From NCBI RefSeq assembly GCF_963678975.1, contig NC_089280.1, positions 19,769,863 to 19,833,862 of the forward strand: 64,000 bases of DNA, in the 5' to 3' direction. Below the pieces are notes generated by a model. It was not told the DNA's origin. It did not search any database and saw only the letters and a program-made list of their open reading frames with translations. Positions 6,434 through 29,880 of this stretch are shown in pieces. Each line of letters begins with the position of its first letter. Within the stretch, counting starts at the first letter, position 1. The stretch is from Dysidea avara. Its lineage: Eukaryota; Porifera; Demospongiae; Dictyoceratida; Dysideidae. The translations under genes were made by a program, and so were the position numbers.

Positions 6434-6459
6434 GAAGTGAAGAAAGGCAGTTTTTTTTT

Positions 6460-6497
6460 ATCGCTTCTCGGCCTATCGGCTAAGATCAAGTAGAAAT
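6460..6497 (+). ncRNA. U2 snRNA gene, 5' part (split by insertions)
   Basis: The sequence starts ATCGCTTCTCGGCC and continues TATCGGCTAAGATCAA, matching U2 nt 1-30, then GTAGAAAT in place of GTGTAGTATC. U2 is the spliceosomal RNA whose GUAGUA region pairs with the intron branch site. The match stops just where the branch-site recognition sequence should be complete. The rest of the U2 gene (from nt 40) appears at 17248 in the same orientation, so the gene is split by about 10.7 kb of insertions. The missing GT dinucleotide also occurs in the second U2 5' half at 19591, so both loci may come from one variant or pseudogene. Confidence 0.8.
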
Positions 6498-6511
6498 ATA
6501 CCACTTTGACA

Positions 6512-6643
6512 CCTCAGATCAAAGGAAATCACAGGGTTATATATCACATATTTCCCTGACCACAGGGCAATATCTAGATATTGCCCTGTGGTTAGGGCAA
6601 TATCATGATATAGCCCTGACCACAACTGCCTTTGATGCTGAGG
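6512..6643. repeat. Palindromic repeat, MITE-like
   Basis: Outer arms CCTCAGATCAAAGG (6512-6525) and CCTTTGATGCTGAGG (6629-6643) enclose a strong inner palindrome around 6551-6597 (GACCACAGGGCAATAT against ATATTGCCCTGTGGTT) and a smaller one near 6597-6616. No target duplication was found. It lies immediately after the U2 5' half. The following stretch to 7123 shows no gene. Confidence 0.6.
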
Positions 6644-7123
6644 CAGCTACAAAGCATCAGTTCCCTTTGATTATTTATATAGAGATGCTTAAAGTTTTGC
6701 ATTGTGGGTTTGAATTAAACATGTTGATTTAGTCAGGGGCATTGTTGTGAAGTAAAAAGAAATGAGTGAGTCAGCATTGCATAGTTCAGTTACTAAGCAT
6801 CACTAAACAATCATTTTTGCAATGTGGATTGTTTTTCAACAGAGTACATTTCAACTGTACGAAAAGATGCCTCAAACATTCACAACCTATATGTCTAAGT
6901 GTTTATTTTAGCACCTTAGGTAACTTTATTCATCCACAAAGTGATTATTTGGTTTAAAATGGTATCACTACAACCAGTGAAACCCACAATCATTTCTTTT
7001 TTGTGCCCACAATTTAAACCCACAATCGATTTTTGCAAACCTCTGTATAAAAATAATGTGGTGAATGCAGGTTTGTCTTCCTTCACCTATTAGGTGAGCA
7101 TGCCAGAGTGGTATATATTACTT

Positions 7124-7230
7124 ATACCATGGCCACTCGGCATTTGCCTGATATATATGCCCGCGCCCTTGGGCCTGCGGCCCTCGGGCTTGGGCATATA
7201 TATCAGGCAAATCCCTCTTGGCCATGGTAT
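7124..7230. repeat. Long hairpin next to the U2 target duplication
   Basis: Left arm ATACCATGGCC with TTTGCCTGATATATATGCCC pairs with right arm GGGCATATATATCAGGCAAA with GGCCATGGTAT. The loop is GC-rich (GGGCCTGCGGCCCTCGGG). It ends 13 bases before the U2 target copy at 7244. It may be a MITE or the remnant of an older element end. Confidence 0.7.
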
Positions 7231-7243
7231 AACTATTAAATAA

Positions 7244-7262
7244 CTGTTCTTGTCAGTGTAAT
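7244..7262 (+). repeat. U2-derived target-site duplication before element A
   Basis: CTGTTCTTGTCAGTGTAAT equals U2 nt 40-58 in the form found at the start of the U2 3' half (17248-17266). It directly precedes element A. The same 19 bases also separate elements C and D at 23742-23760. Three copies next to element ends show that this is both the target and its duplication. Confidence 0.9.
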
Positions 7263-7309
7263 TGGATCGAAATCGGTGCGCCCCAGGCGGGCGGAACTCT
7301 GCCGGATTG

Positions 7310-10300
7310 ATGAGTGACAGGAACAAGAAGAAACGGAAATTAATTAGCCGCAAGAAAGACTGTGACCGACCAAGTGGCACTGATGGCGAAGGAAACCAAT
7401 GTGGACGAATGGAGGAGATCTCCAGGAACAAATGGAGAGTCGTATTTGAACTGCCAAAACAAACTACGTTCTACTGTCCAATCTGCGATTGTTCCTACAA
7501 CGTGTATTCAAGCATCACGAGGCACATAACTCTAAAACACGAGACTGACATTGAGTATTTGTACAAGTGTTGTGACTGTGAGATAACATTCGAATCGAGA
7601 AAGGAACTTGGCAGACACGCCAGTGATAAACACCGAATGGTAGAAGAGCGACCACCGCCAAGCAGGAAAGGAGCCTTCCACTGTTCCTTCTGTGAAGAGT
7701 CGCTCGCTACCCAGAGAGGTCAGGCACAGCACGAACGAAACAGACACCCCATTCGACTGTCTAAGTATCTGGCAAACCTGGCCTCCCAACCGGATGACGA
7801 AGAGGAACAAGCCGAGGCTAGTGTAGTCAACGAAAGCAGCAAAACAAGTCAACCAGCTTCGCAACCAACCCATTGGCCGATACATCTTACTAACTCACTG
7901 ATAAGGGAAATGTTTAACATTGGCTGCTCATCAGATATCGCGTTGGCAAAAGCTGTGGGAACAGAGAAGACAGCACATCAAGTGGGAAAAGCTAAGCGAA
8001 GGATCCTATCTCAATATCCAAATTGGAAAGAGACCTTCTACTACCTAAATGAGACCGCCACTCAGCAAATGAGAGAAGTGAGCTACAATGGGACTGAATC
8101 TGAGGAATCCAGTGAGACAAGCTCCGAGGAATCTCGTGATGGGCCAGACTCACCGCCTGAACCACTAGAAGTTATTGTATTAGAGGGGGCTGCCACGCAG
8201 GAGGAACCAGCATCATCACCAGGTAAGGCAACCAATGTTGTAATTGCATACCCCATACAGGTTATATTGGAATGCCCCCACTGTCACATGAAGTGGGTGG
8301 GTGATGCTCTGGAGGGCTATGCAGACCACCTAGCCAGCCATGAGGAATTCGCACACTCATGGATGTTTTTGTGTGCCCTGTGCGCTGAGCATGCTAGCAG
8401 CGAACAGGACATCTTGAACCATTTAGTGAAAGATCACGTTCCCGACCTCGCGACACTACCCATCTCTACGATCAAGCAAGGTAAGAGCGTGCTGCTGCCG
8501 ATGCTCCAAGGTTCAGCTCCTGATGGAGAGGAACAAACAGATGGCTACAGACTAAACTCACTAGCTGCCAGCAGTGGGCCAGCCTCACCACAGCCATCAA
8601 GCAGTAGTGAATCAACCTCGCCTCCGCCTACGCCACCTGTAAGCGAAGATGAAGAAGTGCCACCACTGCCACCTCCTCTAGATCTACCAGGTATAGGTTG
8701 CTCACCAAGAGAAGAACCAGGGAGACTACCATTACCAGGCTCCCCCATCTCGGACACACCCTTCCCAAGCTCACCAACAAGTGATACCCATGGTGAAATG
8801 CCAGAGGTTCTGTACTCGCAGGTTCTGTACTCGCCAATATCAGATACTCCACTACCACCACTAGCCAAGGACTCCGGAGGGCCACCAACTGAAAGAGACG
8901 GAGCAGACACGACAAAAAGTCTCCAGAAGAAACGAGAAGAGGAGAAGAAAGCTTTAGAAGAACTGAAGACAAAATATTTAAATAAATTAGCAGAATACAC
9001 AGAGGACTCTTTAACTGAGGACCAATGGAGAGACTTCTGTACCAACCTCAAGTCACTCTCTGAGGAACTCTGGTCCTTACTGGATTCGTTAAAGTCACAG
9101 AACAATCCAGCGAGAGGAAACCAAACAAGGCAGTGGCAAAGAAGGAGGGGAAGGAGCAACAGGAGGCAACAGCACAATACAGAAAGAAGAGACCAAGGTG
9201 AGGTACGTACGATCGACCTTAGAGTAGGTAGTAACAATGACAATAGATCAGGTAGGAATGACAATAGATCGGGTAGGAATGACAATAGATCGGGTAGGAA
9301 TGACAATAGATCGGGTAGGAATGACAATAGATCGGGTAGGAATGACAATAGATCGGGTAGGAACAACAGCAAGGTAGGCAGAGACAACTATAGATCAGAT
9401 AGGAGGGAGGATGACAGAATAGGTAGAAGCGGTAGTAGTAGTACAGGTAGTAGAATTACGGGACGACAGAGGTGGATCCAACAGGCTAAACGCATACAGG
9501 CTCAGTATCGCCGAAATGCGAAGAACTGTGTCGAGAAGCTGCTTCACCCAAACGAAGAAAGAGAGGTCTGTGGGATACCGATGGACCAGATTCATCACCA
9601 GATGACTGAAACCTATGCCAACACCAGCCATGAAGGAGAACAACCTGAATGGGTCAACACTCCACGCAGAGAGGGGGTCGATGTACTAGACGCCCCGTTG
9701 ACCAAAGAAGAAATAGTCTTCCAACTTGGAAGGCTGCCAGCCAAATCAGCACCAGGTCCGGACAGGCTGACCTATCAGAACTGGAGAGCACTGGACCCCA
9801 GAGCAGAGTTGCTGGAACGGATATTGAACCTCTGCAGCAAAGCTGCACGAATACCGGAAAGTTGGAAGAACAGTACAACTGTACTCGCCTACAAGAACAG
9901 GGGTAATAAGGATGACCTCAATAGCTGGAGGCCAATTTGCCTTCAGAACACGGTGTATAAGGTATACGCCGCCTGCATTGCAAAGCGAATTGCAGCCTGG
10001 GCAATGGAGGTGGGTGCCATTAACAAGGCACAAAAGGGGTTCCTCCCATTCGAAGGCTGCTTTGAGCATACATTCTTGCTACAGTCATGCCTACAAGATG
10101 CCAGACGGAGGCGTAGGCGGATATACGTTGCTTGGTTGGATCTGAAGAACGCCTTTGGATCGGTGCCTACCAACCACCTCCTGAAGTCCATACAAGATCT
10201 CGGCCTTACTGGGACAACGCTCAATGTGGTAAGAGACATCTACACTGGATCTACAACGCAGGTAAGAATAGGCAAGCGAACCAGTGAAGAGATACGATGC

Positions 10301-11641
10301 GAGAAAGGGGTCAAGCAGGGTTGTCCACTCAGTCCCATTCTGTTTGACCTAGCGCTGGAACAGCTAGTTGACGGAGTCGACAAAGAGGGCTACGATTTCA
10401 CTGCTGGTAGAGTAGCGGTCCTGGCATACGCTGACGACCTCTGCTTTATCGCTGAGACACCTGAACAACTGCAGGAAATGCTGGACCAAGCGCAGGAGTA
10501 TGCAGACTGGACAGGCCTGCAGTTCAAGGCACCCAAGTGTGCAACCCTTGCCATTAATAACCGGGCTCCACGCCACTTTGTGGAAAGCACGAAGTTCTAC
10601 ATTAATGGGGAAGAACTGCCAGCTATGGCCTATGAGGACCATTACCGTTACCTAGGATGTGAGCTAGGATCCAACCCCAGAACGGAGGCAACAGCAGCAG
10701 GTGACCGGTATATAAGAGAAGCAAAGACCATTTTTGCCAGCCAGCTTACAGACTGGCAGAAATTGAATGCCATGCACCGGTTTGTGAAACCCAAGCTCGA
10801 CTATGTCATTAGGACCATGCTGCCCACGAAAGGGTGGGCCCAGAATCTGGACAACCAGATAAGGTCTATGGCAAAGAAAGCATTCCGGCTCCCCAGAAGA
10901 ACAACCACCTCGTACTTCTATACCCACTGGAGAGCAGGGGGCTTGGGACTGCCAAATATTGAGGATGAGCTACAGGTCGCCTGGGCATCCCAAGCCTTCA
11001 AACATCTCATTAGTAAGGATAGGTTGATTGTGGCTATGGCTGCAAAACGTATCACCGACACTATTGAAGCGAGAACCAGCACGAGAAGCCCAACTGTACA
11101 AGAGGTTATTGACTTCCTAAATACCCGACCAGACAAATCTGAAGGGCGTGTGAGTAGAGACATCAGATCGCTATATAGTGTGGTGAGAGGATGCTACCAC
11201 AGACTTGGTGCCAAATTAATCTTTACTGATGAGGAAGAAGTCAAGTTACAGATTGGCAACACCATCATCCCCGCAGATAAAGCACGGACAGCATCGTCAA
11301 TGCTCCGTAACCAAAGGCACACTTACCACTTGGAATGTCTGATTAAGTGCCCCGATCAGGGTAAGTGCTTCAGCTCAGTAGCGAAGCACCCAAGCAGCAA
11401 CAGCTGGATTCCTGATGGTAAGTATGTTTCTTTCTCGGCATACCGCTTTGCCAGTAAGGCAAGGTTGAACTTGCTTCCCACTCGCACTGTCCTCAAGCGA
11501 TCCAAACAGCTTCGCGGTACAATCAACTGTAGAAAGTGTGGAGCACACCCAGAGACCTTACCCCATGTACTAAACCACTGTCACTACCACATGGGATTGA
11601 TTAGAGTAAGACACGGAGAAATCCTGAAAAGGATAAAGTGA
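7310..11641 (+). CDS. ORF of U2-targeted non-LTR retrotransposon: zinc fingers, Myb-like region, reverse transcriptase
   Basis: The first ATG is 7310, giving 1443 residues; an in-frame TAA lies in the target copy just upstream. Such proteins bind the target DNA, nick it and copy the RNA onto it. In order: three C2H2 fingers (about residues 55-77, 87-108, 125-145); a Myb-like helix-rich segment (187-240, TAHQVGKAKRRIL); a second finger pair (about 322-376); a Pro/Ser-rich region with repeated SPISDTPLPP (420-520); a charged helix (535-595); an Arg/Asn-rich linker with six NDNRSGR units; RT (about 800-1150) with GVKQGCPLSP and YADD (10427-10438); and a CCHC knuckle (about 1407-1425). TGA at 11639 ends the frame before the endonuclease, whose start is still readable downstream. 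The length and integrity of the frame suggest recent activity of the family, but this copy should lack the nuclease. Confidence 0.9.
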   Translation: MSDRNKKKRKLISRKKDCDRPSGTDGEGNQCGRMEEISRNKWRVVFELPKQTTFYCPICDCSYNVYSSITRHITLKHETDIEYLYKCCDCEITFESRKELGRHASDKHRMVEERPPPSRKGAFHCSFCEESLATQRGQAQHERNRHPIRLSKYLANLASQPDDEEEQAEASVVNESSKTSQPASQPTHWPIHLTNSLIREMFNIGCSSDIALAKAVGTEKTAHQVGKAKRRILSQYPNWKETFYYLNETATQQMREVSYNGTESEESSETSSEESRDGPDSPPEPLEVIVLEGAATQEEPASSPGKATNVVIAYPIQVILECPHCHMKWVGDALEGYADHLASHEEFAHSWMFLCALCAEHASSEQDILNHLVKDHVPDLATLPISTIKQGKSVLLPMLQGSAPDGEEQTDGYRLNSLAASSGPASPQPSSSSESTSPPPTPPVSEDEEVPPLPPPLDLPGIGCSPREEPGRLPLPGSPISDTPFPSSPTSDTHGEMPEVLYSQVLYSPISDTPLPPLAKDSGGPPTERDGADTTKSLQKKREEEKKALEELKTKYLNKLAEYTEDSLTEDQWRDFCTNLKSLSEELWSLLDSLKSQNNPARGNQTRQWQRRRGRSNRRQQHNTERRDQGEVRTIDLRVGSNNDNRSGRNDNRSGRNDNRSGRNDNRSGRNDNRSGRNDNRSGRNNSKVGRDNYRSDRREDDRIGRSGSSSTGSRITGRQRWIQQAKRIQAQYRRNAKNCVEKLLHPNEEREVCGIPMDQIHHQMTETYANTSHEGEQPEWVNTPRREGVDVLDAPLTKEEIVFQLGRLPAKSAPGPDRLTYQNWRALDPRAELLERILNLCSKAARIPESWKNSTTVLAYKNRGNKDDLNSWRPICLQNTVYKVYAACIAKRIAAWAMEVGAINKAQKGFLPFEGCFEHTFLLQSCLQDARRRRRRIYVAWLDLKNAFGSVPTNHLLKSIQDLGLTGTTLNVVRDIYTGSTTQVRIGKRTSEEIRCEKGVKQGCPLSPILFDLALEQLVDGVDKEGYDFTAGRVAVLAYADDLCFIAETPEQLQEMLDQAQEYADWTGLQFKAPKCATLAINNRAPRHFVESTKFYINGEELPAMAYEDHYRYLGCELGSNPRTEATAAGDRYIREAKTIFASQLTDWQKLNAMHRFVKPKLDYVIRTMLPTKGWAQNLDNQIRSMAKKAFRLPRRTTTSYFYTHWRAGGLGLPNIEDELQVAWASQAFKHLISKDRLIVAMAAKRITDTIEARTSTRSPTVQEVIDFLNTRPDKSEGRVSRDIRSLYSVVRGCYHRLGAKLIFTDEEEVKLQIGNTIIPADKARTASSMLRNQRHTYHLECLIKCPDQGKCFSSVAKHPSSNSWIPDGKYVSFSAYRFASKARLNLLPTRTVLKRSKQLRGTINCRKCGAHPETLPHVLNHCHYHMGLIRVRHGEILKRIK
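9236..9361 (+). repeat. In-frame 21-bp minisatellite encoding NDNRSGR
   Basis: Six 21-bp units, nearly identical in DNA, encode six heptapeptides NDNRSGR in the linker before the RT domain. Elements B and C carry other Arg/Asn/Gln-rich sequence at the same place without this array, so it expanded within copy A or its lineage. The basic linker may bind RNA; that is inference. Confidence 0.9.
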
Positions 11642-11748
11642 GCAATCCCAAGAGACTTGGGGGATGTGTTTCTAGAACAACAGATTCCAGGAGACCCGGA
11701 GCACAACCGCCCAGATCTGGTAGTGGTAAACAGAGACAGAACCAAAAT
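11642..11748 (+). pseudogene. Start of RLE endonuclease of copy A, after stop codon
   Basis: The same frame continues past TGA with sequence matching the B protein: IPRDLGDVFLEQQIPGDPE, then the nuclease PD motif (RPDLVVVN). It breaks off at about 11748 where B-derived sequence begins, before the conserved VDV part of the active site. The TGA stands where B has His; a change from a CGA codon would be one step. Confidence 0.75.
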
Positions 11749-12009
11749 CTGCTTAATCCGAATGAAGAAGAGAAACCTGTCAGATACCACTCGACCAAAT
11801 CCACCAGGAGATGACAGAATGCTATGCTGACACCCACACAGAAGGTGAGAAACCAGATTGGATCAGGAGCCCTGATAGAGAAAGTACAGATGTACTAGAT
11901 GCCCCATTCACAAAGGATGAAGTCATCTTCCAGGTAAGACGGTTGCCAACCAGATCTGCACCAGGCCCAGATAGGTTAACTTACCAGAACTGGAAGGCTC
12001 TAGATGCTA
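11749..12009 (+). repeat. Duplicated 261-bp fragment of element B
   Basis: This stretch matches 13978-14239 almost base for base (about three differences) and encodes the segment just before and into the RT domain. Here the codon CAG stands where B has the stop TAG at 14035-14037, so the fragment keeps the older state, but it has lost one A in an A run. It joins at 12009-12010 to the zinc-finger part of B. The high identity, against much lower identity between A and B, points to a recent duplication or template-switch junction. Confidence 0.9.
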
Positions 12010-12010
12010 T

Positions 12011-15000
12011 AGGAGTGCGGAAGGATCGAGAAGGTGTCCAGCAACAAATGGAGAATTACGTTCGAGCTACCAAAACAAACCACCTTCTTGTGTCCAGTAT
12101 GTGACTGTGGATATAATGTCTATTCTAGTAGAACTAGACACCTCACCACCAAACATGAGAACATGGAAATTGAATACCTATACAAGTGTTGTGATCGTGA
12201 CAGACGGTTCGAATCGAGAAAGGAGCTAGGTAGACACACGAGCGATGTCCACACCACGGCCGAAGAAACCCAACCACCATCGAGAAAAGGAATTTATCAA
12301 TGTACTTTTTGTGAAGAATCACTTATATCGCAGAGAGGCCAAGCGCAACAGGCATCCCATCAGGCTTTCAAGGCTAATGGCAACCCTGGCCTCCCAGCCC
12401 GCAACAGAGGAGGACACCCAGCCACCTGAAACTGAGGAGACAGACAGCAGCAAGGCCAATCAACCAACACATTGGCCAATTGACCTTACCAACGCACTAA
12501 TCAGAGCTATGTTTGCAAGGGGGTGTTCATCGAACATCGCCCTTGTGAAACATATGAACACCAACAAAACACCACATCAAGTGGGAAAGGTCAAACAAAG
12601 AATTTTGGCTCAGTACCCAAACTGGAGAGAAACCTTTTCCTACCTCAACCAAGCTACAAACAATTTAATTGAGGACAATAGCTACAGTGAAGGAACATCA
12701 TCAGATGAATCTAGTGAGGCTCCCTCTTCTCCGCTAGAGCCAACAGCTATATCAGAAGACATAGAAATGATAATACTGGAAGAGGGAGTTGCCGGGCAAG
12801 CAGAGTTACAGGAAGATGCAGAAACAGTAACACTGGAGGTGGAGGAGAGGCAGATGGAGACAGTAGGATCACAAGGTGAGCAAGTAAGTATTGTAATTGC
12901 ATATCCCCTGCAGGTGGCACTAGAATGCCCACATTGCCGCATGAAATGGGTGGGTGATGCACTGGAGGGATATATTGAACATTTAGCCTCCAGCCACAGT
13001 GAAGTCACCCACTCATACACGTTTGTGTGTGCTTTGTGTGCTGGCCATACTAGTACTGAGGACGAGGTGTTACAGCACCTTGCCAGCGAACACGTCTCTG
13101 ACCTGGCTACAATTCCAGTTTCAGCCATCAAACAAGGTAAGAGTGTACTGCTACCCCTACTAAGAGATACGGACCACAGTGGAAGCGAGACACCCCCCTC
13201 GAGCTCATCCCACCACTGCCACCCCCCTGCCCTGTATGAGAGCTCACCAGCCCATCTAGAGATCAATCTCAAATACCACCACCACCACCAGATTCCCCGG
13301 TGTCTGATGCACCGCTGCCACCCTCCCCACTAACTACGCCAGTACGGAGAGAGAGCACATCCCAGTTCCCTTATTCGCCAATATCAGATGCCCCATTGCC
13401 ACCCTCACCTGTGGACGCCAGTCCACCAGCCAGAAGAGCTAGTGAGAGTGCAGCAAGGAGCCTTGAACAAAAGCGAGAGGAAGAGAGGAGAGCCCTACAA
13501 GAACTAAGAGATAAGTACATTAGCACATTCACGGGCCACACGGAGGACTCGATAATTGACCGATGGGGAACATTCTGCACACACATGGACCAGCTATGTG
13601 AGGAGCTACGATCATTGGCAGATAAGTACAAGCCACAACGACCAACCAGGGGCCATAGAACAAGACAGTGGCAAAGGAGACGGGGTGGTGATCACAGGTC
13701 ACAGAGGCAGGATAGGAATACAGATAACACAGCCAGAGGTACACAGAACCGTGAGAGAGGAGGCCAGAACAATAGGAGACCGAATGTAAACAATGGCAGT
13801 ATACATCGGAACAACAGCAACAGGACAGGTAGGCATAATAGTAGGTCAGACAGGCACAACGATGATACAGAAGACAGGAGACCAGGTCACAGAGCGGCGG
13901 GACGGCAGCGCTGGATTGAACAGGCCAAACGCGTACAGGCCCAGTACTGTCAGAACTCTAAGAACTGCATCCAAAAGCTGCTTAATCCGAATGAAGAAAG
14001 AGAAACCTGTCAGATACCACTCGACCAAATCCACTAGGAGATGACAGAATGCTATGCTGACACCCACACAGAAGGTGAGAAACCAGATTGGATCAGGAGC
14101 CCTGATAGAGAAAGTACAGATGTACTAGATGCCCCATTCACAAAGGATGAAGTCATCTTCCAGGTAAGACGGTTGCCAACCAGATCTGCACCAAGCCCAG
14201 ATAGGTTAACTTACCAGAACTGGAAGGCTCTAGATGCTAAGGCCGACCTGCTGGCATTGATACTTAACATTTGTAGAATGGCCAAAAACATACCGGAGAG
14301 TTGGAAAAAGAGCAAAACAGTATTGGCTTACAAAAACAAAGGCGACAAGCGGGACCTTAGCAATTGGAGACCAATCTGCCTTCAAAACACCGTATATAAA
14401 CTTTATGCAGCCTGTATTGCTAAGAGAATTGCTTCATGGGCCATAGCGTCAGATGTCATTAGCCACGCTCAAAAGGGATTCCTACCCTTTGAAGGTTGTT
14501 TCGAGCACACCTTCCTTCTTCAATCCTGCATGCAAGATGCTCGTAGAAGACGTAGGAAAATATACATTGCTTGGCTAGACCTGAAAAATGCTTTCGGCTC
14601 AGTTCCAACTAATCACCTCTTACGATCGATGGAAGAATTAGGCCTAACGGGAGTAACGTTAGAGGTAGTAAAAGACATCTATACCGACTCAACAACAAAG
14701 GTAAGAATTGGTAGGCACAGTACAGAAGACATTGTCTGTGGGAAAGGGGTAAAACAGGGATGCCCACTTAACCCTATCCTTTTCGACCTAGCACTAGAAC
14801 AGCTAATAGAGGGTGTCAACCAAGAGGGCTACAACTTCACTCATGGAGAAGTGTCAGTGCTAGCATATGCTGACGATCTCTGCTTTATAGCAGAATCTCA
14901 CACACGTCTGCAAGAAATGCTTCACCGAGCACAAGAGTTTGTAGGCTGGACGGGACTCCAGTTTAAAGCATCCAAGTGTGCCACACTAAGCCTGAACAAC

Positions 15001-16487
15001 CGAGCACCACGTCACTTTGTTGAGAACACCAAATTCCACATCAATGGAGAGGAATTGCCAGGGATGAACTACGAAGACCACTATCGCTACCTGGGTTGTC
15101 AACTCGGTGCCAACCCCAGAACTGAAGCAAACAAAGTAGGGGAACAATACCTAGGGGAGGCCAAAGCAATTTTTACCAGCCTGCTTACAGACTGGCAGAA
15201 GTTAAACGCCCTTCATAGGTTTGTTAAGCCGAAACTAGATTACACATTAAGGACCATGCTCCCCACAAAAGGATGGGCTAAGAATTTGGACAATCAGGTC
15301 CGTTCTATGGCCAAAAAGGCTTTCCGGCTCCCTAGAAGAACAAACACACCTTATTTCTACACACACTGGAGAGCCGGAGGTTTGGGTTACCAAACATTGA
15401 AGACGAGCTTGATGTTGCTTGGGCCTCACAGGCTTTCAAATACTTAATCAGTAAGGACCCTACAGTTGTTGCTATGGCAGCACACAGAATTACCAGCACC
15501 ATAGAAGCTCGAACCACCACCAGAAACCCAACTGTTCAAGAGGCCATAGGATTTCTAAACACCAGTCCAGACAGAGAGGAAAGCCGCCTAAGTTATGACG
15601 TCCGGTCACTATACAGTTTAGTCAGAGGCTGCTATCAGAGGCTAAGTGCCAAGGTTGTCTTTACAGAGGAAGAGGAAGTAAAGCTAAAAGTTGGTGACAC
15701 CTTAATCACAAAGGAAAAGGCTCGTAGTGCATCTGCGTTATTACGAGATCAACGGCTTGCCTACCATCTCGAATCACTGACAAAGTTCCCTGATCAAGGC
15801 AAGAGCTTTCACTCAGTGGCCAGACATACTAGTAGCAATAGTTGGATACCGGACGGCAAATACATTTCATTTGCAGAGTACCGTTTTGCCAGCAAAGCCA
15901 GACTCAATGTGCTCCCAACCCGCACTGTTTTGAAGTGGTCGAAGCAGCTCCGAGGTACCATCAACTGCCGTAGATGCGGTTCACATCCAGAGACACTGGC
16001 CCACGCCCTAAACCACTGCCACCACTCAATGGGGTTAATTAGAACTAGACAAGGAGAAATCCTAAAACGTCTTAGACATGCAATTCCAAGGGACATGGGG
16101 GAAGTTTTCCTGGAACAGCAAATCCCAGGTGACCCGGAACGTAACTGCCCAGACCTTGTGATTATCAATCGGGAGAAGAACAAAATCATTGTAGTAGATG
16201 TAACAATGCCATTTGAAGGAGAACCTCGTAGCCTTGCAGAAGCCAGGGAAACCAAACTTCAGAAATATAGTAATCTGAAAACCTGGCTACAAGGGAAGTA
16301 CAGTGAGGTAGAACTTGAAGCATTTATTGTTGGGGCACTGGGCTCATGGGATTTAGACAACAAGCCTGTACTACACATGCTGCACATAGGCAGAAATTAC
16401 TCTAAGCTTTTCAGGCGACTTTGCTGCATTTCAGCTATAGCCGGCAGTAACAATATCTGGAAGGCTTTCTGCCGTAGTGGTAGTTAA
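12011..16487 (+). pseudogene. Broken ORF of copy B: zinc fingers, RT, CCHC, RLE endonuclease
   Basis: Reading order is frame 1 (12034-12340: two fingers and the start of a third), frame 2 (to about 13250: Myb-like region and second finger pair), frame 1 (13260-15385: Pro-rich SPISDAPLPP repeats, Arg-rich linker, RT with YADD at 14866-14877), then frame 3 (15390-16487). Lesions seen: no start; about 11 bases missing near 12344; a frameshift near 13200-13260; TAG at 14035; one base lost near 15386. The C-terminal part holds the CCHC knuckle (CRRCG, HALNHC), the RLE core PDLVIIN with VVDVTMPFEG (16150-16220), and a conserved tail ending at TAA 16485-16487. It is not translatable as one protein but is the best record in the window of the endonuclease. 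Confidence 0.9.
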
Positions 16488-17247
16488 TAATTTAAAATAA
16501 AAAAAATTCTAAATACAAAAAATAAAAAAAGGCTTGGTCGTGTACGTTATTACTATGTCTATATTGTCTAACATTGTGTATCATTTTCTTTTTTCAGGAA
16601 CTTACTGGCACTTTGCCTGTAGACAACATACATACAGGTCTACAACTAACTGATGATCTAGGGTGGCTTACCTTTACAAAAAGATAGATCCACCCTGGGC
16701 AGTGTGCTCTCATGTGCCACACACTAATGTGACTAACTGTGAATGTGTTCAATCATTGCAGGACCACCTAAAAGCATACCAACAAACAATCACACACATT
16801 CATCAAAGGCTCCTACCTAGGGTGACCTTATCTTTTCACTAAAGTCTGGATCACCATAGTTGGCAAGACCCAATAACTGCAGCCACTACCTCACCACCTG
16901 AGTTGGGATCTGCAGGAATTAAGAAGTGTAGCCACTACCTCACCACCTGAGTGGTGGTCCACAGGAAAGGAGAAGCTGTAGGAATGCTGACTGATGTACA
17001 TGCTTACTACACACTCACAACTCCTGTTCAGGAAGGTTGGTCTTCACAGTAAGCCAAGCCATCCTGGAACTACAGGAACTACAAACTCATTTAAATTTCC
17101 ATTGATGATAGAACATATCTGTTTCTTCATCAAACTGACCCACCCTTCCAGTCCTTGTGGCTGAGGGGCCCACCAGCGATGGTGCATTAGGGCAACCTTC
17201 CCTAATGAAGGCCCTCCTTCAGTTTTTTGCTGAATGGGAACACTCAA
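16488..17247 (+). other. 3' UTR of element B
   Basis: The 3' UTR starts with an A-rich stretch (16490-16530). It contains a twice-repeated AGCCACTACCTCACCACCTG (16877 and 16928) and ends with a module at about 17160-17220 (GAGGGGCCCACCAGCGATGG, CCTTCCCTAATGAAGGCCCT) that recurs at the end of element C (23652-23710). In R2-type elements the 3' UTR RNA is recognised by the reverse transcriptase; a conserved, hairpin-capable module right before the target fits that role. Confidence 0.8.
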
Positions 17248-17395
17248 CTGTTCTTGTCAGTGTAATATCTGACACATAGGCTATTAGCCTATTCAATATT
17301 ACTCTAATTTGTGGAACTCGGAGAGGAGTTTGAAGCTTGCTTCACCCTCTCCACGAGTTACCCAGGTATTGCAGTACCTCCTGGGTGGCTCACTC
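17248..17395 (+). ncRNA. U2 snRNA gene, 3' part
   Basis: U2 nt 40 to the end. Stem-loop IIa is GTCAG/CTGAC around TGTAATAT; IIb is ATAGGC/GCCTAT; the Sm-type site is AATTTGTGG (about 17301-17309). Stem-loop III pairs GGAGAGG with CCTCTCC, and stem-loop IV pairs CCCAGG with CCTGGG around the conserved TATTGCAGTA. Several stem positions differ from vertebrate U2 but keep pairing, so this half evolved as a real U2 and was split recently or is still under constraint. The 5' part is at 6460. The retrotransposons A and B lie between them in the same orientation. Confidence 0.92.
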
Positions 17396-18003
17396 CCCCT
17401 CTGGGGGACATTAATGAACAAAGCAATCGTGTGTTGTGACGGAAACCTGTCGCCAAAACCCCCAAAGTATACGTAAACAACCTACCTTTATACGTAAAAT
17501 CCAGGAATCGACATAAGACATAATGAACTCGCATCAATAGTGAAAGAGAATGCATTAACTATTATTCCTACCATCAGCTTCTCGGAATCAGAAAGGTCAG
17601 GCCCGCCCAATGCTGCCAGCTGCTGAACGCGCAGAAAGGCCGTAGCGGCAGTTCTGAAGACTGTCACGTCAGCATAAGGCTTGCCCTTGTTAACGAAGTG
17701 TTGCTACTTTGATCGCATTGAGCCATGCTCACAAAACATTGTAAAGACATCCTGTACAAAACAGTTGCAGGGTTTCAAGTAAAAATATATATTTCGTGAG
17801 TAACAATATCAACACATTTCTCCACACTTCCAATTCAAAGAGGGCTGGTATGTTATTTATTCCACCTTCAAGATTCCAGTACATTGGCAATAAACAAAGA
17901 TTTATTGCTGTTTCTCTCCCAACCACCAGTGACCGACAGAATACACTGCATATTAATAGCTGCACTAATCACATGAATTAATGCACTACACCCTGCAGTA
18001 CAC
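17396..18003. other. Downstream flank of U2; no gene seen
   Basis: No protein or RNA gene is recognised. A candidate U2 3'-end processing box could lie just after 17395, but no consensus could be identified with confidence. Confidence 0.4.
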
Positions 18004-18008
18004 GGTAC

Positions 18009-18642: not shown

Positions 18643-19590
<948 letters not shown>

Positions 19591-19628
19591 CTAGATTCTC
19601 AGCCTATCGGCTAAGATCTAGTAGAATC
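19591..19628 (+). ncRNA. Second U2 5' part, diverged
   Basis: It aligns to U2 nt 1-40 as CTAGATTCTCAGCC, TATCGGCTAAGATCTA and GTAGAATC. It has mutations in the first stem and the same missing GT before GTAG as the copy at 6460. It is directly followed by retrotransposon C. No U2 3' half was found downstream of the C-D array, so this is a U2 pseudogene or truncated locus. Confidence 0.7.
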
Positions 19629-22600
19629 ACCCCACAAAGCAGAAAAGAAAACATCAGCAGCGCAGGAATGGTGGTAGAGAAAGTACCGACAGGAGACATA
19701 ACAATAGGGGCAGGAATAACAATCAACAAAACAACAAATGGAGTAACAGCAGGATGCACAGAGGAGAGAACAGATGGAACAACAATCAGCAGCAAGACAA
19801 CAGATGGACAACGCCAGGCAGGACAATGATGGTAGAAGACCAGAAGAGCAACATCGGGCCAGCAGACAAGCCAGATGGATTGCCAAAGCTCGCAAGCTGC
19901 AGCAGCAGTACCAAAGAAATGTGTAGAAAAGCTCATCCATGGGGAACAACAACGAGAAGAGTGCAGGAAGACATTCAGAACATCATGACGGAAAAGTATG
20001 CCAAATGACCCACAACCAGACTGGGCAGAAGAGGCGATCAACAATGACACTACCAATGTCCCGGATGCCCCCTTTACCACTGAAGGGGTAAGGTTTCAGA
20101 TGAGGAGGCTTCCAACCAACCCAGCACCTGGTACTGATGGAATAACATACTGCTTGTGGAAGACCTTGGACCCACAAGGTAAGCTCCTTACAACATCCGC
20201 AGAAGAAACGAACGAATACTGGACTGTTAGAAGGTAAGCACCACAGTGCTTGCTTACTTAAAAAAAATAAGAGAGATAAGTTGGACCTAGCCAACTGGAC
20301 ACCCATTCTTCTACACAATACAATCTATAAAATCTATGCAGCTATGATAATCTATAAGATCTATGCAGCTATGATAGCAAACAGAATTGCTACCTGGGCA
20401 ATCAGTACAGATATAATCAATGCTGCCCAGAAGGATTTCCTACCCCACAAAAGTTGTTTAGAGTACAACTTTACCTTACAGTCATGCCTACAAGACTCTA
20501 GAAAGCACAAGAAGGTTTATGTGGCATGGCTAGACCTAAAAACACTTTAGGATCAAGCATTTACTGAGGTCAATGGAAGAGCTGGGTCTAGGAAGAACAA
20601 CTATCTCAGTAGTACAGGACATTTACAGTGAATCAATGACCTGTAAGAGTAGGACAGGCATACGTTGGTGACATTCCCTGTGAATGGGGAGTGAAGCAAG
20701 GATGTTCTCTCAGCTCCATTCTGTTCAACTTGGCTTTGGAACAACTAGTCAGAGCAGTGGATGCAAAAGCTGGATACAACTTTGACCGAGGTGAAGTCAC
20801 CATCTTAATCTATGCAGATTACTTGCACTTGGTCACAGAGACATCACAACAGTTGCAGGCCCTATTGCATATGGCTCATGAATATATTATGCTGGGTGAG
20901 CTGGCCTAACCTTCAAGTTTGCCACTCTCAACCTGGACAAACAAGCCCAGCGACACTTTGTCAAATCACTCTAGGAGGTGAGCAGCTGCCAACACCTCAG
21001 TTGGAAAGACCACTACCTTGGATGTGAGCTGGGTGTGAATACCAGAGCTACTCTAAAAGAACTGGGAGAGCAGTACATTAATGAAACAAATACACTCTTA
21101 GAAAGCAACTTACAGCCTGACAGAAGCTGGATGCACTGAAGCGCTTTGTACGGCCCAAGCTGGACTTTTCACTTAGAACCTTTTTACCAACTAAAGGGTG
21201 GGCCAAGTAACTTGACAAAAGAGTAAGAGGGATTACAAAGAAGTCATTGAGGTTACCAAAAAGAACAGTCACAGCACTATGGGCACTAAAGATGAAAGCC
21301 ATTAACACAGCTCAGAATGGGTCCCTACCATATGAAGGCTGCTTTGAGCATGTCTTTTTGCTACAATCATGCCAGAAGATGGTGCAGAAACATCAAAATT
21401 GCCTGGCTGGACCTCCAAAATGCTATTGGCTTGGTACCAACAAAGCACTTATTGTCATCTTTGGAAGACCTAAGATTGACAGGCAGTAAAATTAATGTGG
21501 TTGCCAACATATATCAAAACTTAACAACCTATAGGTATGGAGTACTCAGAGGAGATTTTATGTGACAGAGGAGTTAAGCAAGGCTGCCCCCTTAGCCCAA
21601 TCCACTTTGACCTGGCTATGGAACAACTAGTTAGTGGCGAGTAGACAACCTTCACCTTTCCAATATGTGTGACAAATTTTAACATTTTCTAGCTTTACTC
21701 AGCATCTGAAATTGAAGCATCCAGAAGCAACCGTGACACTACTGCACCGAGTGTGGAGAACACTTCGAGAGCAAGAGGGAGTTACTGCAAATCACACCGG
21801 AATCCACCGGCCTCACAGCCGAGGCATCTGGGAGACTACCCATGCTCATTATGCGAAGAATTGTTCACGTCGGAGAGAAGTAGAAGTGGACAAGAGAGGA
21901 ACCAACACCCTATCCTCTTATTGAAGAAACTAGCAATGGAGGCCACAAAGGGATGCAAGAAAATCTGCTCTGGCGACCAAATGCAACTTTGTCCCAAGCA
22001 TCACAGCCAGCCCCTTGGCCAATAGAACTCACAAATTTACTGATCCGAACAATGTTTGTGGTGGGAACAGAATCCAACGTCATCCTAGTGAGAGAAATCA
22101 GTACCTCTAAAACTCCCCACCAAGTTGGAGGCACCAAGCTAAGAATCTTTAGCAAGTACCCAGACTGGAAATCTACTTTCTACCTCAACCCAGACAACAG
22201 CCCGTCACAAATGAACAGGCCACCCCACTCAGGACAGAGTCGCAACAAGAAGAGCAAACAGGTAAACCAAATACTATTATAATTACATACTATATCCCTT
22301 ACAGGTCACACTGGATTGTCCCTTCTGCAAGTTGTACTATCAAGTACTATCAAGGAAAAGATCTAGTTAAGTTTGCAAACACACATCAACACAACACACA
22401 AAGAAGCCTGCCAGTGGATGTTCATGTGTGCTCTCTGCGTAAGCCACACTCAGGAAGAGGCTACCCAGGAAGTGTTTCCAACAAGGACACAATACCATCT
22501 TAAATTTTGTGAGAGAGCTTACACGTGAACCACCAATATCTGTTGAACAACTGATTTACCCAACAGCATGGGAGAGAGCACAGGAATGGTCCACCCACCA

Positions 22601-23741
22601 GTCCAGTCCAAGAGGGAGGGGTCAGCCCCACCTCCCCCCTCTCACTGTCTACTGCTAATATTCTCTCTGACACAAGGCAGATAGACACGACGCAAGAGAA
22701 TGCCACCCAAGCACCTAGTCCCACACCAACTAACCTGGAGAAGTACCATGTCTACCACCCCCCCTACCTTGTATGAGGGACTACATATCACCAACACGAT
22801 CAGGCTCCCTAGTACCAGATGTCGGACTGCCAAGTACACCATTACAACTCTACTCCCCAATATCAGATGTTTGACCATGTACACCTTGACGTCTTTAATT
22901 TGTTGTTGGAGTCTTGGGATCATGGGACCCCAACTACTTGAGTGCCCTAAAAGCCCTCAAAATTGGAAAGAACTATTCAGTCCTATTCAGGAAGCTGTGT
23001 GCATCATCTGCCATCACTGGTAGCCACAAAATCTGGACAGTCTTTTGTGGCACTGGGGCAGGTTAAATTTCACCCCTTAACTAAGAGCTCCCCCTACTTA
23101 ATCAAACTTTAATTAATGTAATACTAAAATAATCCCAAAAAGAAAGAAAAAAAGTAAAAATAAAAAAAAAAGTTTTGTGTATGTATGTGTGTTAGTTTAC
23201 TGTTCTCTTTTCTGCAGGTCCTGACTACATCATGACACCTCCAGCTCCAGCTTTGTTTTTAATTTTCACACCTATATAGTGGTTGGAAGAACACATCCTG
23301 GCTAGTATGATTAATCTCCACAAACAGCTAAACCACACTGGGTCAAGCTGACTGTCCCCTGTACATAACCTCTCAATAAGAGACATGTCACATAGGGGAT
23401 ACCCTTTTGATTTAACCTCTGACTTTGAGCAAAAGCCATTTTGTGTCAGTAAGTAATAAAGTACAGAGCTGAGTGCAGTCTCTCAAAGAGCTGGGGAAAC
23501 ACAGTTCCAAGTAGCTATTCATCACCTCCCACAGCTACAGGAGCTATCCACCTTCCAGTGAACCACTCACTGATTTATTTTTATGCTGTTTTTTTCCCAC
23601 ACTGCTGCTCTAGAGCACCACTGTCTCTAGCAGATCCCCAGTCTGTAATACTGAGGGGCCCACCAGCAATGGTGCATAAGGGTTACCTTCCCTAATGAAC
23701 GCCCTCCTGGCAGTTGCAGCTGCACTGCTGGTGAAATTGAA
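19629..23741 (+). pseudogene. Mosaic retrotransposon copy C (three fused fragments)
   Basis: The order is scrambled. 19629-21290 is a 5'-truncated copy starting in the Arg/Asn/Gln-rich linker and running through RT with many stops; its catalytic box reads YADY instead of YADD (about 20811-20822). 21297-21640 goes back to the RT fingers (NTAQNGSLPYEGCFEH) and palm (GVKQGCPLSP). 21690-22480 is N-terminal: a finger (YPCSLCEELF), the Myb-like region (KTPHQVGGTKLRI) and remains of the second finger pair. 22560-22890 is Pro-rich. Then 22893-23065 jumps to the conserved C-terminal tail (LGSWD, KIGKNYSVLFRKLC). The 3' UTR 23066-23741 is related to that of B and ends at a U2 target copy. Confidence 0.85.
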
Positions 23742-23760
23742 CTGTTCTTGTCAGTGTAAT
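23742..23760 (+). repeat. U2-derived target copy between elements C and D
   Basis: CTGTTCTTGTCAGTGTAAT is identical to 7244-7262 and to the first 19 bases of the U2 3' half. It lies exactly between the 3' UTR of C and the 5' end of D, making a head-to-tail array with one target copy between members. Confidence 0.92.
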
Positions 23761-26029
23761 CGGTGCACCCCAAGCGGGTGAAACTCTGTCGAACTGAAGA
23801 GCGATACTACTAGGAAAGATGGAAGCTTACTAGTCAGAGAACAGATCGCAGCAGACCAAGTGGAAGTGATGGAAATCAGTCTGGAAAAAGTATCTGGTAA
23901 GAAATGGAGAATTACATTTGAACTGCAAAAACAAACAACCTTCTTGTGCTCAATCTGTGAATGCGGTTATAATTTCTACTCCAGTATCATGCGACATTTA
24001 ACTTTAAAATACGAAAGAGTGGAAGTAGAGTACATGTACAAGTATTGTGATTGCGACAGAAAATTTGAATCGAGGAAGGAGCTGGGGAGGCACGTAAGCA
24101 ACGTTCACCCAGCAGCAGAAGAACCGCCACCATCCAGAAAAGGATCATTCCATTGTACTTTTAGTGAGGAATCGTTTGTGCCACAGAGAAGCCAAGCACA
24201 ACATGAACACAACAAACACCCGATCAGACTATCCAAGTTCTTGGCAACACTGGCCTCTCAGCCTGAGACAGACGACGATGAGGAAAGCACCCAAACATCC
24301 CAATCAACCACCACGGAGACAGGTAACACAAAGGCAAGCCAACCAACCCATTGGCCAACAGACCTTACCAATTCGTTAATAAGAGCCAAGTTTGCAATGG
24401 GATGCTCATCGAACATCTCCTTGGTAGAGTATATGAATACAAATAAGACCGCCCATCAGGTGGGGAAAGTGAAGCAAAGAATTCTGTCACAATATCCAAA
24501 TTGGAAGGAGACCTCTTCTTAGCTTAACCAAGCTGTCAGTGAATCAACTGGTGATACAAGCTATGGAGAAGATACTGAGTCTAGCGAGTCACCCACTTCC
24601 CCACTCGAACCAAGCTCAGAAGAATCTAGCGAGTCACCCACCTCCCCATTTGAACCAACAATTGTACCAGAGAGAGAAGATATAGAAACAACAGTACTGG
24701 AAGAGGGAGCTACACAAGTGGAGCCAACAGGATCACAAGGCAAGGTAGTTACTATTGTTATTGCACACCCCCTACAGGTAGCTCTAGAATTCCCACATTG
24801 TTGCATGAAATGGGTGGGTGATATAATCAAGGGATACATCGAAAAACATTTATCCTCCAGTCACAGTGAATACACCCACTCATATATGTTTGATTGTGCC
24901 CTGTGTGCTGACCATACCGATACTGAACACGAGATGTTACAGCACCCAGTCAATGAACATATCCCTGACCTGGCAACACTCCCAATCTCCACCATCAAAC
25001 AGGGTAAGAGCATACTGTTACCTTTGCTAGAGGGTACGGCTGAGAATGGAAGTGATGGGTCAGCCTCTCCATATCCAACATCTCCCCCTCTAAGTGATGA
25101 GGAAGAGGCTCCGCCTGCCAAGAACTGTGTTGAAAAGCTACTCTGGGCTAACAGATAGAGAGAGGTTTGTAGGATACCCCTAAACCAGTCAGATGATAGA
25201 AAGCTATGCCAGCACAAAACAGGAAGGAGAACAGCCAGAATGGATCAGCATACCAGAGAGAGAGGAGGTGGATGTATTTGACGCCACATTCAGTAAGGAC
25301 GAAATATGTCTTCCAACTCAGAAGGTTACCAGCCAGGTCAGCACCTGACCCAGACAGCAGCAGCATTGGAGAACCCTGGACTCTAGAGCAGAGCTGATTT
25401 CACTGATGCTCAACCTCTGCAAGAAAGCGAAATGAAGCTGGAAGAAAAAGTACAACAGGCTTGCCTACAAGAACAGGGGTAACAGAGATGATCTTAGCAG
25501 CTGGAGGCCCATTTGCCCCCAGAACACTATATGCATGCGAATGGCTATAGAAGTAGAAGCTATCAACAATGCCTAAAAAGGGTTTCTCCCATTTGAAGGG
25601 TGTCTCGAACACATGTTCCTTCTACAGTCCTGCCACCAAGACGCTCGACAAAGACATAGGCAAATGAATCTACATTGCCTAGCTAGACCTTAAAAATGCA
25701 CTTAGGTCATGCCAACCAAGCACCTTTTACAATCCATGCAGGGGACCTGGGCCTTACGGGAACAATGACTAAAGTGGTGAGAGATATATACACAGACTCC
25801 ACCACACACGTAAGAATAGGGAAGCATACTAGTGATGAAATAGGGTGAAGCAGGGTTGTCCACTTAGCCCAAGCCTGTTTGACTCAGTGGTAGAAAGAAG
25901 TGGTACCAAAAAAACAAGGGCATAAAAAGAGAGTAATGGAGAGCCACCTCTTTCACAACCGTTCATGCTGCCTCGAGATTTTCCACCAGAGGATCTATCC
26001 AGTGGATAACTCGTTGGAGCAGCACATGC

Positions 26030-27085
26030 CAAGTTTTTGTCATCTGTGGTAGCAGCTATATATGGCTACAAGTTGTACCCAACAAAATTTGAATACGACC
26101 ATGTTTCCAGACAAATCGTAGCACAATATCCATTCATGTCTGATGAGAATAATAGTCATGTAAGCTTATGTGCTATCCATATACAGCCTTATGTATGTAT
26201 ACATGCTTTATATAGGAGTCAGAAGAAAAGAATTTTCACTCCAGCCAAGCCAAAGCAGCCTATGTAACAAATTCCAGATGATTGTATTGAAGCAAGCATT
26301 CACACTAAAGAGATATGGCAAAATTAAAGGCAGAGTTAGTAAGACAACCCCTCAAGAGTCAACGTTGTCTAAAAACATGACCAAAACATTTTGGAAAAGG
26401 TGACAGAATATTTCTGAATCTCCTAAACCTGTACCTGCCGTACTTGATGAGTATCCTACATTGAAGAGGTGCAACCAGGTAACAATTATGCGGGTATGCA
26501 TTAATGTATAATTGTTTTTTGTTTTCATGATTGTTAATACTGGAATTTGAAACGATCTGTAACAAAAAGAAAATTAAAGTTCAGATAACTCATGACTGGC
26601 TTCAATTATGTGATACCATTCCAAAAATGGCAACGATAGACAAAACTAACATCAGAGAATACCATATAAGGCAGGAGATACATCAGACCATAAGACATCA
26701 ATGTATATTAGTATAGCTATGTGACCCAATCTATAGATTTTTAAAATTTTTGCATACCACTGAATCTTTTTGACCTGCTAACTTTGTTCACCCTGTCTTT
26801 TTTTACAGAACGCAAGACACTTACAGCACTGGCTTGCCTGTGTTACATGTTACCAGACACAAGAAGCCAGCTGGATCATTATTTGCTCTTTCCTTTAATT
26901 CCGGTATTTATATATATTTCTAATTTGCACTTCTAATGGTAACAGGAAAATTCCAAAGCTAGGAAAAACTTGATATATCACAGCCTTGTGTTCTAGTAAG
27001 AGGGAGCGTGGTAACACCAAAGATGCCTACCTAATTGCTAAAATGTTTCAGATAGACATCGGTAAGATTGCTATGATACTTCTAT
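26030..27085 (+). pseudogene. SAMD3-like multi-exon gene fragment inside element D
   Basis: Several exon-like stretches have splice-like borders. 26037-26160 encodes LYPTKFEYDHVSRQIVAQYP and ends CAT|GTAAGC. A second begins after TTTATATAG near 26216 (QKKRIFTPAKPKQ). About 26310-26478 encodes MTKTFWKR and VLDEYPTLKRCNQ and ends CAG|GTAACA. Another follows TTTTTTTACAG near 26808 (TLTALACLCYMLPD). The PT-x3-Y, V-x2-I-V-x-x-YP pattern and the KTF-x-x-R plus YP-x-L order recall the SAMD3-like proteins common in animals with many transposons. Stops and frameshifts are present. Name by family resemblance only; the last two stretches are not assigned. Confidence 0.4.
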
Positions 27086-28845
27086 ATAGCAACATTTTAT
27101 GGATTCAATATGCATTATACTATGGGCCTCTCTAATGTGTACAGACCACCACTTATTAGGTACAGAAGGAAAAAACCAGGGTCGTGAGACCTATATAGAA
27201 GTCACGCTGTGTTTATATTGGCAGGAAGAAAAAATGCAATTTTCATTGTTACATAGCTTCATGGTCCCTTCATGTAGAGGCAGCAAACATAGTAAGAGAT
27301 ACATTGAAGACTACCCAAAGATGTTAGACAGTGTGCTAACTGACTGGCAGAATCTGGAGGCTATCCACAGGTTTATCAAGCCTAAACTTGAAGAATGATG
27401 CTCCCCATGAAGGTATGGTCAAAGGACCTGGGACAACAAGGTAAGAGCAACGGCTAAGAATGCCGTAAAACAACCACCCTATACTTCTAGGTACATACCT
27501 GGAGCGTCACAGGCATTCAAGTATCCATGCAATAAGGATCCTGAAAGTAGTGACTAGCTGCACAGAGGTTGAAGGATTCCACCAATAAAGCACGGAAAAC
27601 AACCCAGGATCCAGGCATAACTGAGGCACTGGAATTCCTCAACTCCAGGCTAGAACCTGAAGAATCCTGTAGTAGCTACAGTAGGCTGGGTGCCAAGGCT
27701 AGAAAAACAAATGAACAGGTAGTGATGATAATTTGAGACACACAGGCCAAGCAAAGGGAGTCAGTCTCACTGCTGTGAGAACAATGCCATTCACAACATG
27801 TTGGGGCAATTCTCAAAGTCCCTGACCAATTAGGTAAATGCTTCCACTTGACAGTGAAGTTGGGTTGCTAATGGCAGCCAGGGTATACCGGTTTTCACAC
27901 AAGTAGATCAAATAACCTTCTACCAGTAAAAACAGTCTTGAAGCAAACTGGTAACTTTAGGGGGACCATGGCATCAACTGTGCTTCCAGACCACAACAGC
28001 CTGGTGACAAGCAAAGTACAACTCTTGGCAGTGATGCATACAACCGAGGGATTCATTGGTCACCAATCATGTTGGAGAATGCCTCTGATGTTAGTTATTC
28101 CTATACTTTTGCACGGCTAAAACTCACTTGTTTCTTATCATTGTCTTCTATACTGGTCACAGTCCTTTACCATAGCATCATGGATCCTAAGCAGTGTTCT
28201 ATCATCAATGAATATCACACTGCACAATTATATAACATGCGATGTCATATACTTTGTAAGGCTTTACTTTACTGTCAAGCATTTCTATTGCATGTCACAA
28301 GACGCTTGTGAGACCACAACTGCCGTTGATGTGGAAGACAACCAGAGACTCTGGCACACACCATTAACCACTGTCATCATTTGATGGGTCTGATCAGGAT
28401 GAGACATGGGAAAATCTACATATATTACGAAGGAAGAGGAACCTGGGAGAAGCATTCATGAGGTAGGAAATACTACAGTGTATATGCAACTACCCCAACC
28501 TGAGGTGATCAATATATAGCCATACTGACCCCTGGAGCACCCTTTCTGAGCAGGACTATTAAGTTGGTAGTGTTCACAAGGTTGAGAGAGTAGATTGGTG
28601 AACAGAGAAGCGCGTAATGTTACAGTTGCTGATGTAATAGTCCCATTTGAGGGGAAATCATATAGTCTTGCTCAAGCCAGGAAAACAAAAGAAGACAAAT
28701 ACAGCAATCTCAAGGATGTAACAAGAGTTAACAAAATAAAGGAATCAAGTGGATACATACTGTGTTGAAAGTTAATATAAAAAACCAGGAGAGTGTCAGA
28801 GAAGTAAATTCAGTAAAACTTTGGATATCATGGCAACATACAAAG

Positions 28846-29393
28846 CAGACATGGGTCAAGCACTTAGGTCAAGGGCTTGAAGCACTTCACCTGTATAAAT
28901 GCTTAAGTACAAGTACAAGCACAAGCACAAACGCTGTAATTGAGTAAATGCTTCAAGTACAAAGTGAAGCACTATTTAAGTGCTTGATATAACTACTTAA
29001 TTACTTTAACAAACATACACAATGGTGTATGCAGTCATGCAGCTATTGTTTTAAGTACTATTGTTATAATGAACAAACATCAATCGGTAAAAGTTTCATC
29101 TTTCAATCTGCACCTCTCAGGCCTGAAGACTTTCCCTACTACACTGAATAATTGTTCTACAGGTACACCTGATAGAATAATTATTCACATTTGATAGCAC
29201 CTTATGGCGATTAAATAAGAAGCTCATTGGATCAAAGACTTTTGATAAGAGCTGGCAGCTTTTGTGCTTTAAAATGTGCTTATAAGCACTTTGAAATATA
29301 AGTAATTAAGTACCAGCACAAGCACAAATGCTGCACAGTAACAAATACTTTTCAGCACTTCAAAACAAGTGCTTAAGGCTTGACCCATGTCTG
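28846..29393. mobile_element. hAT-type MITE inserted in element D
   Basis: The 548-bp element has ends CAGACATGGGTCAAGC and GCTTGACCCATGTCTG and a perfect 8-bp duplication ATACAAAG (28838-28845 and 29394-29401). The interior has several AAGTACAAGCAC-type and inverse motifs and no gene. It splits the endonuclease tail of D, so it inserted later. Confidence 0.9.
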
Positions 29394-29880
29394 ATACAAA
29401 GTGATAAGGAACTTTTTTGTTTACTTTAACAACAAAAATTCAATTGCTGTATACACTTTCACATAACAGTATAGGGGTGTAAGTATTATCAAGAGTTAAT
29501 AATACTCCACTATTATTAACTCTTGGTATGATATCAAATGTCAGTTTCATCCAAACAGAGCTTTGCCCCACACTATTAATACACAATAATATACATGCAT
29601 ACAATCACAATCCTGCAATGGTAAAATATATACAAATGAAGCATTTGACAATTGTTTTAAAATGGCACACACACCTTGAAGAAACCTACCCAGAGATGGA
29701 ATTAAAGGCTTTTGTGGTGGGTTCAGTGGGTGAGTGCCTGACACCACAAAATAAATGTATGGAGTATTTTTTCTCAAAACTCACTTGTTCTTGCTGGTAT
29801 ATATCAAAGAACTTTTTTGAGAAATAGAAGGAGCTTCATAGCACTACTAAACGTTTGGGCAGTAACTGAGGACATCCAGG

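Follow-up and report, generated by a model that had tools for sequence, protein, structure and literature searches.

In a 64,000-nucleotide stretch of the genome of the sponge Dysidea avara (contig NC_089280.1, positions 19,769,863 to 19,833,862; hereafter the window), we identified retrotransposons joined head to tail at one position of U2 small nuclear RNA (snRNA) genes. We read them as Utopia-type non-long terminal repeat retrotransposons that carry a restriction-like endonuclease and insert in the U2 genes of their host, a reading to which we give a probability of about 85%. The family, its site and its tandem form have been published before, and the elements described here are a further Utopia member. 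Elements A to D lie in the window and E to G on contig C9; places outside the window are given by contig label and position.

The reverse transcriptase (RT) of element B scored 160 bits with R2 against 106 bits with LINE-1, a score that gives no sign of a grouping with the apurinic/apyrimidinic (AP) endonuclease type. The C-terminal frame of B aligns to R2 across the CCHC/restriction-like endonuclease region that follows the RT (66.6 bits), and in this alignment we read by eye what we take to be the PD..D..K motif. The Pfam family zf-RVT reached only 18.7 bits on the element, under its cut-off. In the translation of A, C2H2-like spacings can be seen by eye, with no Pfam zinc-finger match at E 0.01; Myb also found no Pfam match in A at that threshold, an absence that is weak evidence. 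No Pfam match to an AP endonuclease was obtained in the four frames scanned, the 1443 residues of A included. A match of A to Actin_micro (27.2 bits, cut-off 27) was taken as chance.

The insertion site is marked by a 19-mer, CTGTTCTTGTCAGTGTAAT, which we take to be U2 nucleotides (nt) 40-58 in human numbering; the host U2 is one base longer ahead of it, making it nt 41-59 in host numbering. The first-pass annotation had placed this 19-mer at three element ends, and there it stands, exact and on the + strand: before A (7244), after B, where U2 continues to 17398 (17248), and between C and D (23742). In 100 shuffled controls the mean was 0.03 matches at up to 3 mismatches, and no shuffle held three. 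The search of the whole assembly that the annotation had proposed (550.8 Mb in 108 contigs, the window among them) returned 15 exact copies, each of them in a U2 gene or at an element junction. Eight lie in U2 genes without an insert (two on C5, three on C8 and three on C9; the one at C9:16171777 lacks 11 bases of the body), and seven adjoin an element. At three of the seven a Utopia 3' end passes into the rest of U2 (C8:34039826, C8:34046396 and window 17248), at one U2 5' sequence leads into element A (window 7244), and at three the 19-mer stands between two elements (window 23742, C9:19883578 and C9:19884066). A host U2 22-mer had no match in viral contigs.

Every element end found sits at U2, which bears out the annotation's claim of Utopia-type elements targeting this gene. 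All six 3' ends found adjoin U2 at human nt 39/40, with an ambiguity of one to two bases from the terminal AA: the last 148 bp of B have five matches in the genome, all beside the 19-mer, and F supplies the sixth. The 5'-end motif has four genome matches, against none for its reversed control, and TCGGTGCGCCCCAGGCGGG or a close variant is common to all four Utopia 5' ends found (A 7263-7310, D 23761-23800, E and G). A, D and G start directly after a complete 19-mer, and E starts after U2 sequence that is two to three bases short of one. No copy that could be delimited sits at an unrelated target lacking U2 sequence. A protein search with the RT of B gave at least 93 matches genome-wide, a lower bound from 91 of 4133 candidates scored; at least 16 reach 42% identity or more, all within C9:19.78-19.99 Mb or at C8:34.04 Mb, and the remaining 77 are at 34% or less. 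Such an inventory, in which recent and old copies stand side by side and every found end lies at U2, is of interest for the question how an element can persist when its target amounts to some ten genes. Searches for a 5' ribozyme such as that of R2 gave nothing on A in Rfam at a relaxed threshold, and on D a single chance-level match (IS009, 11.6 bits, E 0.94).

The junctions and the restriction to U2 are observations; nicking, transcription and the order of insertion are our proposal. Homology to R2 in the RT and endonuclease, together with the fixed 3' junction, suggests target-primed reverse transcription, as inferred from the family. The endonuclease would nick U2 on its bottom strand, immediately ahead of CTGTTC (human nt 39/40), and this nick would prime reverse transcription of the folded 3' end of the element RNA. 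A branched fold with 19 pairs is common to the last ~90 nt of the six copies; four of the pairs are kept through double changes, and this putative structure is likely a binding site for the element protein. The top strand would then be cut 19-20 bp downstream of the nick; the copy of the target ahead of A, D and G implies a cut at 19 bp. Each of the six 3' ends terminates in AA, and the CTG of host U2 is likewise preceded by AA, so the target duplication can be counted as 19 to 21 bp. A full-length insertion would have U2 nt 1-58 in front of it and be followed by the remainder of U2, starting at nt 39/40. Because U2 1-58 stays ahead of such an insertion, stacking is possible: the target is rebuilt upstream and half kept downstream, so that a later copy could insert against an older one and give the form element/19-mer/element. 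The U2 promoter left in front would probably drive the first element, and rearrangement and decay would scramble the arrays afterwards.

The copies outside the window add detail to this picture. E, F and G form a three-member stack in which the 19-mers at C9:19883578 and C9:19884066 flank F, a 469-bp stretch ending in a Utopia-type 3' terminus. At C8:34039580 a 5'-truncated copy has U2 nt 1-38 on one side and nt 39-191 on the other, no base having been lost or duplicated, and the two C8 copies have near-identical 3' ends and downstream U2 flanks. Upstream of E, the 5' part of U2 (around C9:19873320-19873416) is partly duplicated, running from about nt 1 to 51 and then from nt 5 to 56. Perhaps this records an RNA begun in U2 as a co-transcript, and perhaps slippage, which explains it equally well. 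Element A and the C8 element, on different contigs, match at 99.4% identity across 1862 bp and at 92.9% across a further 723 columns; this near-identity suggests that the Utopia family has moved here, or been converted, recently. A gradient from young to old along the arrays, with the newest copy always upstream, found no support: the protein matches of the rightmost copy, G, are free of stops, and those of the leftmost, E, contain some.

Within the window (Table 1) the arrays are less orderly than first described. The annotation had counted four diverged copies at two U2 loci; Utopia copies are indeed present, but four is a simplification, as there are at least six pieces, C being a composite, and between A and B there is no U2 sequence. 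Element A breaks off within its endonuclease at about 11747. The cut in A, the 97% duplicate of B interior and the missing 5' end of B show that the two were fused by rearrangement, and the original junction leaves no trace in the sequence. C|D is the one clean stacking junction in the window. The end of D had been set at 29880, which is not supported: the protein matches of D stop at 28714, and all U2 search matches in the window past 23760 are at E 0.076 or worse. Rfam U2 matches cover 6460-6625 and 17213-17398, each only partly U2; the true U2 is confined to 6460-6498 (nt 1-39) in the first and, in the second, to the 3' part at 17248-17398 (from 17246 with the two shared A's).

Table 1. Features of the window between 6 and 30 kb.
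Feature	Positions	Strand	Evidence and remarks
U2 promoter region, TATAAAAG box and T-run	6330..6459	+	Common to other U2 genes; aligned with 9 other upstream regions, TATAAAA in all 10 rows
U2 nt 1-39	6460..6498	+	100% vs host U2; Rfam U2 match 6460-6625
Non-Utopia DNA, ~740 bp, that interrupts the 5' fragment of U2	6499..7237	.	Two inverted repeats, at 6540-6612 and at 7112-7242
U2 nt 35-59 (host numbering), 19-mer at end	7238..7262	+	100% match
Element A: 5' end complete; putative zinc fingers, then RT; cut within endonuclease	7263..11747	+	Open frame 7262-11641; RVT_1 109.4 bits; 5' motif; B match ends 11749
A-B joining segment, 97% copy of B interior (13961-14242)	11732..12013	+	
Element B: no 5' end; has 3' untranslated region	12014..17247	+	RT frame open at 14041-15447, CCHC/endonuclease frame open at 15474-16487
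Remainder of U2 behind B	17248..17398	+	17246-17398 = host U2 39-191 at 99.3%; Rfam
Degenerate U2 5' half (nt 6-36)	19596..19626	+	93.5%, E 3.5e-8
Composite C: RT, RT again, N-terminal and C-terminal pieces, 3' untranslated region	19632..23741	+	Protein matches; 3' end aligned
19-mer between C 3' end and D 5' end: clean stacking junction	23742..23760	+	
Element D: 5' end complete; coding region broken, with unrelated insertions	23761..28714	+	3' end not found

Several points weigh against our interpretation of the elements as U2-specific Utopia copies that stack by insertion. The RT is placed by its R2-over-LINE-1 score; most copies are broken, and for A, D and G no 3' end was found; stacking junctions number only three in the genome; and copies near C9:19858325, 19976556 and 19993232 were left out of the inventory of ends. 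The searches give lower bounds, the genome copy may lack some stretches, and all double changes in the 3' fold come from F alone, with three cells broken. A crossover within the 19 bp shared by the 3' flank of one element (U2 from nt 40) and the 5' flank of another (U2 1-58) would, moreover, yield an identical head-to-tail junction.

Such recombination is a rival explanation for the origin of the stacks, and we consider it improbable without dismissing it. Rearrangement is plain elsewhere, in the A/B fusion, in the composite C and in the two C8 copies with their near-identical 3' ends and downstream flanks; yet 19 bp is short for a homologous crossover, and exactly the element/19-mer/element form recurs at all three junctions, in two places. 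The annotation's view that the copies are stacked head to tail is therefore upheld by three junctions genome-wide, although only C|D is intact in the window, and its view that new copies entered an occupied target fits the form of these junctions, which recombination would give as well. Assembly errors joining separate U2 loci are very unlikely to have made the arrays. Repeats of up to 99.4% identity could mislead an assembler, but the joined elements differ strongly (C from D and A from B, at ~66-72% identity), which disfavors collapse, and exact junctions occur at two distinct places. An identification as Keno, the Tx1-type element with an AP endonuclease, would account for the same U2 site, as its 3' flanking U2 sequence is identical (PMC4640811), but the RT scores, the restriction-like endonuclease region after the RT and the lack of a Pfam AP endonuclease match in the frames scanned leave it scarcely credible.

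Utopia elements and their U2 site were described by Kojima and Jurka in 2015, who report strict U2 specificity in Phytophthora and Nasonia, tandem insertion at 20/94, 1/9 and 7/14 3' junctions in three Nasonia species, and a target duplication of 20 bp in reptiles (PMC4640811). The sponge elements share the restriction-like endonuclease, the 3' junction at the identical U2 position, the strict specificity, the tandem insertion seen in Nasonia and, if the A before CTG is counted, the 20-bp duplication of reptiles. They differ in the non-canonical letters of their U2 target and in the 5'-truncated C8 copy with neither loss nor duplication. The annotation had thought the array form worth describing for this lineage; the arrays are real, but the Nasonia precedent takes away part of their novelty, and among titles and abstracts of the open-licence literature we met no other work on such arrays. 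R2-like sponge proteins without Myb and homologous to Utopia have been reported, and are like ours in both respects; arrays are absent from the passages that describe them (PMC13188248). With R2 itself, the elements have in common the homology of RT and CCHC/endonuclease, site-specific insertion and a probable use of the host promoter; they differ in targeting U2 instead of 28S ribosomal DNA and in giving no Myb match in the Pfam scan.

The U2 genes hit by Utopia look unusual in their own right. An Rfam search of the genome, in which 46 of 29206 candidates were scored, found at least 16 U2 places, 14 of them above the cut-off. At the insertion site, 11 of the 16 (L009-L017, L021 and L023, on C5, C7, C8 and C9) have GAAATAACTG, where the canonical U2 stretch is GTAGTATCTG. 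The bases ahead of it are AAGTA in most, AAGTAA in L016, AAGAT in L021 and CATAC in L014. At the branch-site-recognition stretch, 11 of the 16 carry GAAAUAACUG in place of what we take to be the canonical GUAGUAUCUG; the stretch is interrupted internally in two (L022 and L024), and three (L018-L020) have an element instead. The Utopia insertion site touches the 3' edge of this altered stretch. To judge by the TATAAAA that ten upstream regions share, most of these U2 genes do not seem to be dead. In seven of the sequences, RNAalifold kept 2 of 56 pairs through double changes, with a covariation term of +0.99, and so lends no support to the structure.

A canonical U2 21-mer had no match in the genome at 0-1 mismatch, and 18 at 2-3 mismatches, where the reversed control had 16. 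The negative carries no information, because U6 and an 18S 60-mer were not found in the genome searches either, though both must exist, and we did not accept the missing canonical U2 as proof of loss. Stretches identical to human may be absent from the genome copy searched, and canonical U2 may have been missed in this way; the 362,551 bases fetched contain no N.

Two readings of the altered genes can be offered. The working U2 snRNA of this animal may have lost the near-universal GUAGUA and carry GAAAUAA, with Utopia living in the altered genes and possibly having helped to reshape them; we hold this as a tentative and rather unlikely idea. If it were true, and the altered U2 the animal's only one, a base-pairing rule thought general across animals would have changed. 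The other reading, to which we give an even chance, is that the target is a U2-derived side family, comparable with the U2_sat repeats that are the target of YURE in Ciona, and that a canonical U2 exists but is missing here. It draws on the U2 places without GUAGUA and on the failure to find U6 and 18S, with which a canonical U2 could be equally hidden. It has to accommodate eight uninserted copies on three contigs that are nearly identical and have promoter blocks in common, and the fact that every 3' junction seen belongs to the altered family. This alternative concerns the target only and is compatible with the Utopia explanation of the elements. We recognised nothing on point, by titles and abstracts, in the literature on divergent animal or sponge U2.

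The introns of eight myosin genes (L054-L061) did not settle whether the U2 is altered. From 84 introns, four without a YAG end were dropped, and motifs were counted in the zone from the last 48 to the last 6 bases of the remaining 80, with 300 shuffles as control; the borders come from an alignment script, and some may be wrong, as L057 keeps one stop when spliced. TTTAY, predicted for GAAAUAA, occurs in 23 of the 80 against 19.2 expected, a count reached by 43 of 300 shuffles and not significant, and a changed branch site matching GAAAUAA finds no support in this count. An earlier count in 74 introns (24 against 16.7 expected, reached by 9 of 300 shuffles) weakened with more data. CTRAY is not enriched either (7/80, 9.9 expected). 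ACTGC is enriched near the 3' ends (11/80 against 2.8 expected; 0/300 shuffles). An attempt to call introns de novo from other fetched DNA gave four candidates against eight decoys at a threshold of 8 and was dropped. The myosin genes have many exons and short introns (median ~57 nt, n=74), as befits an animal, and introns are also short in Amphimedon, with medians of 68 bp in ribosomal protein genes and 81 bp genome-wide (PMC3412847).

A few further observations were made along the way. One match to U12 snRNA, at C13:2323719-2323877 on the - strand (107.7 bits), suggests that a minor spliceosome is likely present. The two inverted repeats in the DNA that splits the U2 5' fragment ahead of A are perhaps small mobile elements, and farther along the window a ~31-bp repeat (AGCTGAACTCTCTACAGGGTGACTTG and variants) forms a large array at 38797-40501.

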